Positions 12,317 through 16,955 of a DNA stretch of 38,794 nt are shown piece after piece; position 1 is the first letter of the stretch; every line of letters begins with the position of its first letter. A model generated the notes under the pieces. It searched no databases, was not told the DNA's origin, and was given only the letters and a program-made list of their open reading frames with translations. A program made the translations under genes and the position numbers. The DNA comes from Calothrix sp. HK-06. GTDB lineage: Bacteria > Cyanobacteriota > Cyanobacteriia > Cyanobacteriales > Nostocaceae. Location: contig NZ_MRCD01000086.1 in the NCBI RefSeq assembly GCF_001904745.1, forward strand, positions 1-38,794. The letters run 5' to 3'.

Positions 12317-13504
12317 ATGAAAAAAGATTTTATGTTTAGCTCCGAGTCTGTTACTGAAGGACACCCGGATAAGCTTTGTGACCAAATTAGTGATGCAATT
12401 GTTGATAAGTTTTTGCAACGCGACCCTTATTCAAGAGTTGTTGCTGAGTGTGCTGTAGCTACGGCTATTGTATTTATTGCTGCTCGATTTGAGTCGGATG
12501 CTGTTGTTGATTTTACTAAGATTGCTCGCCAAGTTATTAAACAAGTTGGTTACAATGACCCTGATTTTAATGCTAACACTTGCAGTATTATTACGAGTTT
12601 GAAGGAGTTACCTTATAGTGGTTATCGGTATTGGGACGCGCGACAATTATCTGATGAAGAGTTAGATCTAATACCTGTAAAAGACCAGGTTACGGTATTT
12701 GGGTTTGCTTGTAATCAAACTTTAACTTTTATGCCTTTACCGATTTGGTTGGCGCATAAATTAGCACATCGTTTAACAACGGTGCGTCAAGAAAAAATAT
12801 TATCTTATATTGCCCCTGATGGTAAAACTCAAGTGGGGGTTGAATATAGTAATCGTAAACCTCATCGCATTCACAGCATTTCTATTTTAGCTAGTCAAAA
12901 TCAGCGCTCTAGCTCACAAGTCGCACAGCAAGAGATTAAAGAAGCGGTCATTGATTACGTTTTTAAAGACGAAGTTATTAAACCTGATAATTATACTCGT
13001 ATTTTCATTGACTGTGATCAGTCTTTCGCTATTGGTGGGCCATCTGTACATTCTGGTTTAACAGGCCGCAAAAACGCTATTGACACTTATGGTGAATATT
13101 CACGCCATAGCGGCGCCGCATTAAGTGGTAAAGACCCCACTCGTATTGATAGAGTGGGTGCATATGCTGCCCGTTACGCTGCAAAAAATATCGTTGCTGC
13201 TCGACTCGCTTCGGAATGTGAGGTGCAAGTTACTTACTCGATGGGACTTGCACGTCCTGTTAGTATTCAAGTCGAAACCTTTGGAACAGGCGCCATCCCC
13301 GATGCTGATATTGCTGCTATTTTAGAAGAACACTTCGACTTTCGCTTGGGTGGCATTATTCGTAAATTTAATTTACGCGCACTACCTGCCATTACCGATG
13401 GAGGATTTTATCGTAAACTTGCTGCTTACGGTCACGTTGGTAGAGACGATTTAAAAAATTTACCTTGGGAAGAACTTGATATGGTTCCACTTCTTAAAAG
13501 GTAA
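12317..13504 (+). CDS. Divergent S-adenosylmethionine synthetase (MetK) paralogue
   Basis: 395 residues, full MetK length, with all three domains. Conserved: SESVTEGHPDKLCDQISDAIVD (HPDK 16-19), Glu44, PDGKTQV (168-173), LTGRK (248-252), SGKDP (270-274), Asp278 and AYAARYAAKNIVAA. Changed: the usual GAGDQG-x-MFGYA is PVKDQVTVFGFA (120-131); the loop normally carrying Gln98 is rewritten; GEI of domain 1 is ARF (56-58); and the Asp before GLTGRK (E. coli Asp238) is His245 in PSVHSGLTGRK. The ATP/phosphate side thus looks retained while several methionine-site residues differ. It is probably not the housekeeping SAM synthetase. It may be a paralogue with another substrate or reduced activity. 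DUF5132 and a P-type ATPase-like gene follow on the same strand. Confidence 0.8.
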   Translation: MKKDFMFSSESVTEGHPDKLCDQISDAIVDKFLQRDPYSRVVAECAVATAIVFIAARFESDAVVDFTKIARQVIKQVGYNDPDFNANTCSIITSLKELPYSGYRYWDARQLSDEELDLIPVKDQVTVFGFACNQTLTFMPLPIWLAHKLAHRLTTVRQEKILSYIAPDGKTQVGVEYSNRKPHRIHSISILASQNQRSSSQVAQQEIKEAVIDYVFKDEVIKPDNYTRIFIDCDQSFAIGGPSVHSGLTGRKNAIDTYGEYSRHSGAALSGKDPTRIDRVGAYAARYAAKNIVAARLASECEVQVTYSMGLARPVSIQVETFGTGAIPDADIAAILEEHFDFRLGGIIRKFNLRALPAITDGGFYRKLAAYGHVGRDDLKNLPWEELDMVPLLKR

Positions 13505-13618: not shown

Positions 13619-13873
13619 ATGGCAATATTTAAAATTATGCCTAACCTTGAAAATATCACCAAGGGTCTTAGTGTTCTATCGGCTTCAGTTCCTTTGTTCG
13701 CACGTTTTGGTAAATCTTTAACCAAGACAGCTATTAAAAGTGGAATTATTGTCTACGCCGAAAGTAAAGGATTGATTACTGGAGCTAGTGACGCTCTTGA
13801 GGAAATTTTGTCGCAGAAGCTAGAGCCGAACTTTCCGAATCGAACGTCAAGCAGCGCGCGAAGTAGTAGATAA
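13619..13873 (+). pseudogene. DUF5132-family small membrane-associated protein, one-base frameshift
   Basis: As read, 84 residues. The core SLTKTAIKSGIIVYAESKGLITGASDALEEI (about 36-63) matches the DUF5132 pattern of a hydrophobic helix and an amphipathic helix. After codon 63 the frame breaks. Adding one T to the TTTT run at 13806-13809 gives EEIFVAEARAELSES...KQRAK with a TAG at 13864-13866, the expected family ending (VAEARAEL). The present frame instead ends in a Ser/Arg tail that looks unnatural. Genes of this type, as I recall, often sit beside P-type metal ATPases; here one follows 262 bp downstream. AAGGGGG at 13603-13609 is a good ribosome site. Either a real lesion or a homopolymer sequencing error. 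Confidence 0.65.
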
Positions 13874-14135: not shown

Positions 14136-16112
14136 ATGAGCAATTTGTGCGAATTGGATACAACACAAATATTGCAAAAACTTCACAGTAATGCATTTGA
14201 TGGATTAACAACTAGTGAAGCAAACTTACGGCTCAAAAAATATGGAAACAATGAACAAGTTGAACAACTGCGTTCAATAAAGCAAATTCTTTGGGAGCAG
14301 ATTAGCGCAACGTTAGTAATTGTCCTTATTTTATCTGCTATAATTACCCCGATTTTTGGAGATTATAAAGAAGCGGTGGGAATCATCGCGATGATTGTGC
14401 TGATTTGTTGCTTGGGATTTACTCAAGAGTACCGCGCACAAAAAGCAATTATGACTCTCAAAAAATTATCAGTACCCAATGTTAAGGTACTTCGCGATGG
14501 TTATATTCAGGAAATCTCTGGCTTGTACTTGGTGCCAGGAGATATTATTTATCTTGAAACTGAGGATATTGTACCCGCTGACTGTCAAGTATTAGAAAGC
14601 CAAAATTTCCAAGTCGAAGAAAGTAGGAATGTTGTCTCCACAGGCTCGATTTATAAAAGTTCAGTAGTTAGATGTGGACAATCTAAAGCTATTGTCACCG
14701 AAACTGGAGTAAACACAAAATTTGGATGCATTACTAATCATACTGCCGCAACCAGCCCAACTTCGCTTCAACTTCGTTTAGAAAAACTCGGACGAACACT
14801 TACCATAGTTGTTTTTTCTATTGTGGGAATTATTCTCACTTTCGGATTGCTGCGAGGTGAAGACCCAAAATTAATGTTTCTGACTGCAATTACTTTAGTT
14901 GTCGCTGCTTTACCTGAAGGTTTACCTGCTGTCGTTGCAATTGCTCTTGCTCTCGGCGCCCGTTCTCTACTCAAAAGACGTATCCTAGTTCGTAACCTCT
15001 CTTGTGTTGAAACACTTGGTTTTGTGACAGTAATTGGTTCTGGTAAAACAGGAATGAACAACTCCGCACGTCCTGAAGTTCGGAGTGCTGTTGTAAATTG
15101 CAAGCGCGCGGGTATTCGTCCGATTATGATTACACCCGAACATCCCCTCAGAGCTATTCATATTGCGAAAGAAGTAAATATTAATACAAAAGCGCGCGTT
15201 GTTACTGGTAGTCAATTCAATAATCTATTAAAAAATAAATCAACGTATCGGCTCAAGAAGGTATCGGTTTATGCAAGTGTATCACCTACAGAAAAGCTGG
15301 CAATCGTTAAATCTTTAAAGCGGCGCCGACATGTTGTTGCTATAACAGGTAATGGAATTGATGATGTTCCAACATTCCATACAGCAGATATTGGGATAGC
15401 GATGGGATTACGCGGTACTGATGCTGCCAAAGAAGCTGCTGATATTGTGTTACTAGATGATAATTTCGCCAGTATTGTAGCAGCAGTGAAGCAAGGACGA
15501 GTAATATACGATAATATTCGTAAGTTTATCAAGTACTTGTTAAGTAGCAATATTGGTGAACTTTTGGTAATGTTGATTGCTCCTTTTTTGGGAATGCCAT
15601 TACCTTTACTACCAATGCAAATACTTTGGATTAACCTTGCTACTGATGGATTACCTGCTTTGGCTTTGAGTTTGGAACCACCCGAACGTAATATAATGAA
15701 TCGTTCCCCATACCCACATGATGAAAATATTTTTAGTCGGGGTATGGGCAAAGATATTCTTTGGATAGGATTATTGTTGGGAACTGTATCTTTAGCCACA
15801 GGTTATTTTTACTTTAAAAGTGGCGCTGCAAACTGGCAGACTATGTTACTTACAGTTCTCACTCTGTCTCAAATGGGGAATGCTTTAGCAACTCGTTCCG
15901 AACGTGAATCGCTGTTCAGAATTGGATTATTTTCAAACAAACTACTGTTAATGGCAGTTACACTCACGCTGTTTATGCAGCTAGTAATCATTTACGTTCC
16001 CGAATTCGCGCGAATCTTCTCAACTACACCACTCTCGGCTACCGATTTAATCGTATGCTTAGGCTTGAGCAGCATTGTTTTCTGGTCTACAGAACTTAAA
16101 AAATGCTTTTGA
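14136..16112 (+). CDS. P2-type cation ATPase-like protein with lost catalytic motifs (pseudo-pump)
   Basis: 658 residues; intact relatives have about 900. Present: cation-ATPase N-terminal domain (about 5-70), actuator domain, PEGLPAVV (260-267) of the ion-binding helix, LWINLATDGLPALALSLEPPE in helix 6, and C-terminal helices. Lost: the phosphorylation motif DKTGT reads GKTGM (303-307, Gly for Asp); TGES of the actuator has no Glu (VSTGS, 167-171); TGDxP reads TPEHP (333-337); GDGVND reads GNGIDD (405-410). About 200 residues of nucleotide-binding domain are missing between residue 310 and ARPEVRSAVV. The frame has no stops. It should not form the aspartyl phosphate, so it is either a dead gene decaying slowly or a non-enzymatic membrane protein. 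A GGGGGG ribosome site precedes the ATG at 14136. Confidence 0.85.
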   Translation: MSNLCELDTTQILQKLHSNAFDGLTTSEANLRLKKYGNNEQVEQLRSIKQILWEQISATLVIVLILSAIITPIFGDYKEAVGIIAMIVLICCLGFTQEYRAQKAIMTLKKLSVPNVKVLRDGYIQEISGLYLVPGDIIYLETEDIVPADCQVLESQNFQVEESRNVVSTGSIYKSSVVRCGQSKAIVTETGVNTKFGCITNHTAATSPTSLQLRLEKLGRTLTIVVFSIVGIILTFGLLRGEDPKLMFLTAITLVVAALPEGLPAVVAIALALGARSLLKRRILVRNLSCVETLGFVTVIGSGKTGMNNSARPEVRSAVVNCKRAGIRPIMITPEHPLRAIHIAKEVNINTKARVVTGSQFNNLLKNKSTYRLKKVSVYASVSPTEKLAIVKSLKRRRHVVAITGNGIDDVPTFHTADIGIAMGLRGTDAAKEAADIVLLDDNFASIVAAVKQGRVIYDNIRKFIKYLLSSNIGELLVMLIAPFLGMPLPLLPMQILWINLATDGLPALALSLEPPERNIMNRSPYPHDENIFSRGMGKDILWIGLLLGTVSLATGYFYFKSGAANWQTMLLTVLTLSQMGNALATRSERESLFRIGLFSNKLLLMAVTLTLFMQLVIIYVPEFARIFSTTPLSATDLIVCLGLSSIVFWSTELKKCF

Positions 16113-16427
16113 TACACAATAAAATGAAATTGCAGAAAGGCGTGCTAGGACGATAAATCGCTCTCCGCTGCTTTTCTGCATTTGTGCGTAAGTAAATAAA
16201 CCCATGAGTCTCATCATTATGGCACTATGTACAAGTGTTTTGATTTCGTCTCAAGCCAATTGTGCTGTTCACTTGCAATTTACGCATATAAATGATGCGA
16301 TAATCGCAATTGGATAAATATACTACCGTAGCAAAATCTAAATATTCTCAACGGTTAGTTGTTAATTGTTTCTCGTTAATGGTTAATTGTTATTTATCTG
16401 GCTGTTTATACTATTAATTTGTCACCG
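16113..16427. other. Intergenic region with hairpin and tandem GTTAATTGTT-like repeats
   Basis: TGCAGAAA (16131-16138) pairs with TTTCTGCA (16173-16180), a possible terminator or repeat after the ATPase-like gene. From about 16352 to 16393 there are short degenerate repeats of the ggttaattgtt type, the short-tandem-repeat style common in filamentous cyanobacteria. No gene is seen. Confidence 0.45.
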
Positions 16428-16955
16428 ATGAAAATTTCGACCGATAACCGAGTTCCCTTTCCACGCCAAATTGTATATACTACCTACCGGGACAAAATAA
16501 CGGAATTAGTTCGTTATGTGCCAGATATTCGCACTATTAACGTCAAGTCCCGACGTGAAGCAGATAACATTATATATATAGTCAACGAGTGGCATGGTGG
16601 TGGCGAAATTCCGTTGGCAGCAAGAGCATTACTTAGCGATGATATGCTGTCTTGGCTTGAACACGATGTCTGGGATGAATCAAAATTTACACTAGATTGG
16701 CGCCTGGAAACGCGCGCTTTTACTGAAGCTGTTTCTTGTATAGGTAAAAATACTTTTATAGAAGATGGTGATTCAACTATTATTCAAAGTCGAGGCGAAC
16801 TCAATATAGACCCCAATCAAATTCATGGGGCGCCTGCATTTATTACAGGTCAAATAGCCCGTGTCGTCGAAGATTTTCTCGCTGCCAAAATAAAACCAAG
16901 TTTAGTCCAAATGAGCGATGGTGTACGTAAGTACCTGGAAAGAGCAGGTAATTAA
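16428..16955 (+). CDS. SRPBCC (START-like) family protein
   Basis: About 175 residues from the ATG at 16428 (MKISTDNRV); the alternative TTG at 16419 adds only three residues. The start FPRQIVYTTYRDKITELVRYVPDIRTINVKSR, then IIYIVNEWHGGG, TLDWRLETRAFTEAVSC and a long C-terminal helix (AFITGQIARVVEDFLAAKIKPSLVQM) fit the SRPBCC helix-grip fold: strand, two helices, antiparallel sheet, long helix lining a hydrophobic pocket. Ligand unknown. It ends 46 bp before a strong hairpin that separates it from the RnfD-like gene. Confidence 0.72.
   Translation: MKISTDNRVPFPRQIVYTTYRDKITELVRYVPDIRTINVKSRREADNIIYIVNEWHGGGEIPLAARALLSDDMLSWLEHDVWDESKFTLDWRLETRAFTEAVSCIGKNTFIEDGDSTIIQSRGELNIDPNQIHGAPAFITGQIARVVEDFLAAKIKPSLVQMSDGVRKYLERAGN

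Follow-up and report, generated by a model that had tools for sequence, protein, structure and literature searches.

A headless relative of P2A ATPases in Calothrix belongs to a cyanobacterial clade with glycine at the phosphorylation site

We analysed a 38,794-nucleotide stretch of the 9.99 Mb Calothrix sp. HK-06 genome, referred to here as the window. It encodes a relative of the P2A ATPases that has lost its phosphorylation aspartate, its TGES loop and its nucleotide-binding (N) domain. We refer to this as the headless protein. It lies within a clade of cyanobacterial proteins, others of which are full length, with glycine in place of the aspartate. What is new is a putative clade of P2A-type pseudoenzymes that ends in a headless form. 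The overall best explanation for the headless protein, which we hold with moderate confidence, is a retained pseudo-pump that cannot pump. The protein is likely to be functional without acting as a pump. The assignment as a putative cation sensor or regulatory partner subunit is more tentative.

Features of the locus are listed in Table 1. The ORF has an ATG start and 658 codons with zero internal stops. Neither frame damage nor another genetic code is needed to explain it, because translation with table 11 gives an open frame. Motifs were read by aligning the ORF with 10 other sequences, of which L042 is the closest full-length one. Motif names and the numbering of membrane helices are those in general use. 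A sequence-only reading of this DNA had described altered catalytic motifs within an uninterrupted frame, and the alignment bears this out. The phosphorylation motif DKTGT has become GKTGM. That reading put the missing part of the nucleotide-binding domain at about 200 residues; 220 are absent between T305 and G306 compared with L042. It also noted that TGES lacked its Glu. The Glu is indeed gone, but the loss is larger, since 31 residues of the TGES-bearing loop are deleted relative to L042; the letters STGS in that stretch are not the motif. PEGLP and NLATDG (residues 500–505) are intact, as had been claimed.

Table 1. Features at and around the headless gene; positions are those of the window.
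Feature	Position	Strand	Basis
metK (methionine adenosyltransferase), upstream locus marker	12317..13504	+	NCBIfam model search; synteny
84-aa ORF, eroded DUF5132 (PF17195) relative	13619..13873	+	tblastn with intact DUF5132 query: 35% over 71 columns
Headless protein, putative pseudo-P2A-ATPase, 658 aa	14136..16112	+	ORF, Pfam, alignment, AF2 model
M1–M2, residues 48–110, including G82 and I90	14277..14465	+	AF2 model, clade comparison
A-domain remnant, residues 112–209	14469..14762	+	alignment
TGES loop deletion near residues 164–171	14625-14648	+	alignment
PEGLP ion-site motif in M4, residues 260–264, L259 just before	14913..14927	+	alignment
Former phosphorylation motif GSGKTGM, residues 301–307, Gly303 for Asp	15036..15056	+	alignment
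N-domain deletion, 220 residues, between residues 305/306	15050/15051	+	alignment with L042
TPE replacing TGD, residues 333–335	15132..15140	+	alignment
GNGIDD replacing GDGxND, residues 405–410	15348..15365	+	alignment
M5–M10, residues 444–657, with N472, E475, N500, T503, D504	15465..16106	+	AF2 model, alignment
178-aa gene of unknown function, downstream locus marker	16419..16955	+	locus comparison

Protein family models place the ORF among the P-type ATPases. Three Pfam domains score above cut-off (Cation_ATPase_C, E1-E2_ATPase and Cation_ATPase_N), and the HAD Hydrolase domain falls below its own (24.1 compared with 26.4 bits). The general P-type model TIGR01494 is passed with a score of 198.1 (cut-off 62.3). 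The best NCBIfam model is TIGR01522, which describes the PMR1-type Ca2+ pump equivalog; the ORF scores 486.7, below the cut-off of 798.3, and so does the intact relative L050 (753.4). AF2 predicts a P-type fold (pLDDT 77.3, pTM 0.71). The model has a beta-rich A domain, a P domain without an inserted N domain and, in our own reading of the secondary structure, ten membrane helices. In Foldseek, the nearest solved structure is SPCA1 in the E1-Ca-AMPPCP state (7yai, TMq 0.85). Hence, the protein is P-type by fold, according to the Pfam domains, TIGR01494, AF2 and Foldseek alike. It is not P-type by mechanism, because the Asp, the TGES Glu, the N domain and intact GDGxND and TGD motifs are all missing. 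The P2A Ca2+/Mn2+ ion ligands, PEGLP in M4 and the N and D of M6, are present. Predicted conformation was not used as evidence, because two AF2 models favour different states. The headless model fits E1 states best, with TMq reaching 0.86, and matches the majority of E2/E2P states less well (0.64–0.74), with 7bt2 (E2.ATP, 0.84) and 5zmw (E2(TG), 0.80) departing from this pattern. The model of a full-length member of the clade, L051 (pLDDT 77.8, pTM 0.68), is nearer to SPCA1 E2P states (8iws 0.80, 7yam 0.77) than to E1 states (0.60–0.66).

The same headless protein is found in Calothrix sp. PCC 7716, Dulcicalothrix desertica PCC 7102 and Calothrix sp. PCC 7103. Calothrix and Dulcicalothrix strains are also the nearest named relatives judged by the pump gene. 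Including that of the window, the four orthologues are 657–658 residues long, share 95% identity and carry identical deletions. Each gene sits between metK and the 178-aa gene. The closest full-length relative, L042 from a genome of the same genus (G001), occupies the same cysH-metK locus, is 73–74% identical and reads GSGKTGT. Gene order around metK is common to L042, L047–L049, L151 and L152. We rejected sequencing or assembly error, given the same motif state in four genomes. A decayed copy in an otherwise intact orthologue group was also rejected; the nearest full-length relatives already carry Gly. The same deletions in three other species, together with a simulation of stop codons described below, indicate that the deletions are more than chance.

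To place the headless protein among its relatives, we ran three surveys, covering the order (388 genomes), the family (217) and the class (388); these sets overlap and counts apply per survey. At most the best 30 loci were read in each. All 17 matches in the family survey were read (16 Gly, 1 Asp). In the order and class surveys, motifs were read for the best-ranking matches and for one locus from further down, L141, which is a second copy in genome G274 and has Asp. Together with loci collected before the surveys, and after dropping eight duplicates, there were 77 distinct homologues, 25 with Gly and 52 with Asp at the phosphorylation site. A fragment, L108, was removed before tree building, leaving 76 rows (25 Gly and 51 Asp). 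The Gly rows comprise the four headless proteins plus 21 more; one of the 21 represents a split gene by its longer half. The tree was built by a quick LG+G4 search on columns outside the motifs, and long branches were flagged in it. All 25 Gly rows form one clade (SH-aLRT 100), consistent with common descent, nested among the 51 Asp rows. Its nearest branch consists of seven Asp proteins. On this tree, the change from Asp to Gly is placed once, in one ancestral cyanobacterial P2A ATPase, and is older than the truncation of the headless gene. A Gly member was detected in 16 of the 217 family genomes at E <= 1e-260, with the four headless genomes additional to these. Beyond the family, Gly members among the matches listed come from G177, G274, G332 and G343 (same order) and G658 (same class). 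The clade may be wider than the surveyed rows, since motif reading in the order and class surveys covered the better-ranking matches.

Full-length Gly proteins (L051, L042, L053 and others) resemble the headless protein in their clade, their Asp to Gly change, their ion ligands and their M2 and M4 residues. They differ in having kept the N domain and most of the active site: GDGxND is present in 21/21 non-headless Gly rows, the ATP-site Lys in 20/21 and TGD in 19/21. KTGTLT is kept in all 21 save one, which has SGKKGT. The TGES Glu has fared differently, being lost in 19 of the 20 readable rows (V in 8, I in 6, A in 4 and T in 1). Elsewhere, 48 Asp rows share 199 conserved sites; at 25 of these, a fifth or more of the non-headless Gly rows differ. 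We found no published name for the full-length proteins in the open-licence literature searched.

Full-length Gly proteins without the Glu mostly retain the ATP-site Lys and the remainder of the active site. The loss of the motor was therefore probably stepwise, beginning with the Asp, continuing with the Glu and ending with the nucleotide domain. The order of the first two steps is read from L085, the sole Gly row to keep TGES, which branches first in the clade with a support of only 83. An active site kept for so long around a missing nucleophile hardly looks like decay; ATP binding without phosphorylation would explain it. Proteins of the Calothrix/Dulcicalothrix group have had both the TGES loop and the N domain deleted, and their remaining catalytic loops have changed. 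Meanwhile, the ion ligands, the frame and the membrane domain have stayed under purifying selection.

Selection on the headless gene was measured among the four orthologues. Pairwise dN/dS, computed by the Nei-Gojobori method, is 0.158–0.197. The mean of 0.187 (bootstrap 0.141–0.258) is the highest of seven genes at the locus, overlapping three neighbours at 0.141–0.173; the six neighbours span 0.034–0.173 and include cysH (0.034), the 178-aa gene (0.080) and metK (0.095). Despite this rank, the value is far from neutral. Codon likelihood gave an omega of 0.210, with lnL of -3499.86 compared with -3563.86 at omega 1, a comparison (64 log units) in which kappa was also fixed at 2. Intact, full-length relatives and a dN/dS near 1 would have told against a retained gene; the three nearest orthologues instead share the losses, and both estimates of selection are low. 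In 1000 runs of a neutral simulation with four tips and no events other than substitutions, in-frame stops averaged 16.9 and never numbered fewer than 6, compared with 0 observed in the four copies. By codon likelihood, omega is 0.188 for the cytosolic remnant and 0.212 for the membrane part. Selection on the membrane only was therefore rejected. The central proposal of the sequence-only reading, that selective loss suggests a retained pseudo-pump (channel, sensor or scaffold), is supported in part. Retention is supported by the shared losses and the low dN/dS, but the Asp to Gly change predates the truncation and the constraint reaches beyond the membrane.

The headless gene could nevertheless be a pseudogene in the making, its apparent constraint stemming from recent loss or from selection against misfolding. 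Several observations would fit such slow decay, beginning with the top rank of the gene in dN/dS at its locus. The A domain has a raised pairwise dN/dS in the window lineage (0.36–0.43, compared with 0.11–0.12 among the other three). The pump is lost or nearly lost in 2 of 7 same-genus genomes. In G003 there is no match at the locus, where the flanking genes lie 292 bases apart. In G006, all that is left between metK and the 178-aa gene is a stretch of 68 C-terminal codons (92.6% identical; L151:4788-4991). In G507, the gene for the Gly member is split in two, giving ORFs with 333 and 697 residues (L137:5107-8213), and the DUF5132 neighbour of the headless gene is itself decaying. Against this stand the dN/dS near 0.2 in the truncated group and the absence of stops and frameshifts from all four copies. 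Furthermore, the Asp to Gly change has persisted in several families, and omega is 0.138 in five full-length Gly members (L042–L046, codon likelihood). A P2-type gene of the same genome, L160 (L160:1356-4265, G000:C185), offers a comparison. It keeps DKTGT and reads TRES, TGE, GNSVND and PYSLP at other motifs. Its family has a dN/dS of 0.37–0.66 among the five closest copies, a soft contrast with the headless gene because dS is only 0.04–0.08 and the value against a sixth copy, from G001, is 0.25–0.27. Taken together, slow decay is an unlikely explanation for the headless gene. L160 itself may be relaxing; it was considered as a further pseudo-pump but set aside because it is possibly decaying.

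Among the 22 other P-type ATPase genes of the genome, 21 keep DKTGT. The exception, L166 (L166:1407-3344, G000:C100), encodes a headless protein of 645 residues and HMA2 type, from which KTGT, TGES, GDGxND and the N domain are lost. The family occurs in 5 of the 31 genomes searched, in two genera, with a dN/dS of 0.18–0.31. Like the headless pump, its members miss the N domain from the same point on and have no TGES or GDGxND. Unlike it, they belong to another P-type branch and have lost KTGT, while four of the five keep the Asp letter. Given the different branch, the headless form of L166 represents an independent loss.

Conservation in the membrane bears on what the Gly clade might do. E261 of PEGLP, N472, E475, N500, T503 and D504 are present in 25/25 Gly rows. 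E475 and T503 occur in 35 and 12, respectively, of the 51 Asp rows with a residue there. Each of the seven nearest Asp relatives has both, which were hence inherited and kept, not gained. Three further residues separate the groups. L259, adjoining PEGLP, is found in 25/25 Gly rows and 0/52 Asp rows. In M2, G82 and I90 occur in all 24 Gly rows having the position (of 25) and in 0/51 Asp rows. Fixed in one group and absent from the other, these residues argue for a changed job of the Gly clade and are the best sign of a new role that the alignment offers. One such role would be that of a passive cation conduit, in which the pump body now acts as a leak or channel with nothing enforcing alternating access. 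Clade-specific residues in M2 and directly before PEGLP would suit a conduit, as would a conserved membrane domain and ion ligands from which the coupling parts are gone. There is also a precedent. Human S1T, a truncated SERCA1 isoform that retains a Ca2+-ATPase body, is linked to endoplasmic reticulum Ca2+ leak instead of pumping in the accessible part of the source (PMC6953121). According to the same part, S1T differs from the headless pump in being one isoform encoded by the gene of an active pump, rather than the product of a gene that evolves on its own (PMC6953121). However, constraint on the cytosolic remnant matches that on the membrane part and exceeds what a bare pore would need, and the ATP site is largely kept in full-length relatives. 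We consider a conduit quite unlikely.

The retained pseudo-pump would instead act through its ion site. Without Asp, N domain and TGES, formation of a phosphoenzyme and uphill drive should be impossible. For this reason, we propose that the headless protein would bind Ca2+/Mn2+-like cations at its membrane site and change shape with occupancy. Its likeliest role would then be that of a cation sensor or of a regulatory subunit that partners with another membrane protein, perhaps an intact pump. Full-length Gly members, with the ATP-site Lys and GDGxND kept, could sense ATP as well, an ability that this site would no longer give the headless form.

Small neighbouring genes were noted at these loci. 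The 84-aa ORF upstream of the headless gene has no Pfam match. The eroded DUF5132 relative beside the headless gene recurs in PCC 7102 and PCC 7103, and PCC 7716 has a 19-aa match. DUF5132 lies near 12 of the 20 full-length Gly loci with wide context, some of whose contigs end close by. In five genomes chosen for carrying the Gly clade (G000, G010, G014, G023 and G332), DUF5132 had a P-type ATPase gene no more than 3 kb away in 8/15 cases compared with 0.21 expected, 2 of the 8 being Gly-clade loci. By eye, DUF5132 is a small protein with one hydrophobic stretch. It is a candidate small partner of P-type ATPases; the term DUF5132 was not found in the open-licence papers searched. Some Gly-clade members also have a gene for an MgtA-type Mg2+ ATPase nearby; this gene is whole in L131 and L133 (TDKTGT) and partial in L138 and L139. 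PstB is near members in L131, L133, L136 and L142. A functional link to either was set aside, as each is beside 4/20 Gly loci and 2 of the 4 MgtA genes are partial; one PstB adjoining a Gly locus sits in an apparently ordinary pst operon.

Known systems provide partial parallels. Like P2A ATPases of the SPCA1/PMR1 and SERCA type, the headless pump has the fold, ten membrane helices, PEGLP and N/D ion ligands. Unlike them, it has no phosphorylation Asp, TGES or N domain and scores under the TIGR01522 cut-off. Human ERMA/TMEM94 shares with it a P-type fold, altered catalytic motifs and the lack of TGES; ERMA is eukaryotic, keeps the Asp (DKQGIL) and the N domain and is reported as a Mg2+ transporter in the accessible part of the source (PMC13322241). 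Hence, one might suppose that the headless protein is still an active pump of unusual mechanism, powered by another residue or another ATPase, since ERMA without TGES and GDGVND is reported there to move Mg2+ (PMC13322241). However, ERMA retains its Asp, and its D427N variant shows no Mg2+ uptake in the same part of that paper (PMC13322241); in the headless protein, Asp and N domain are both gone. An active pump is very improbable. The phosphorylation Asp is termed invariant in the accessible part of one review (PMC10654040). In the open-licence literature searched, by titles and abstract openings, we found no bacterial P-type ATPase family without it.

In its widest form, our reading is that the Gly clade is a pseudo-P-type ATPase family. 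A P2A pump would have become a receptor or regulatory subunit sensing cations, and at first also ATP, with newly fixed M2 and M4 residues and a DUF5132 companion. The headless Calothrix form would be its ATP-independent end state, and the L166 family would have become headless independently. This wider scheme is speculative, and we offer it as possible at most. A conserved clade without the Asp would be the pump counterpart of the pseudokinases, with a pump body that is useful apart from pumping. The natural series, in which the Asp, the Glu and the N domain are lost, allows the roles of these parts to be separated. For annotation, general models may lead to genes without the Asp being labelled pumps, since the headless ORF itself passes TIGR01494.
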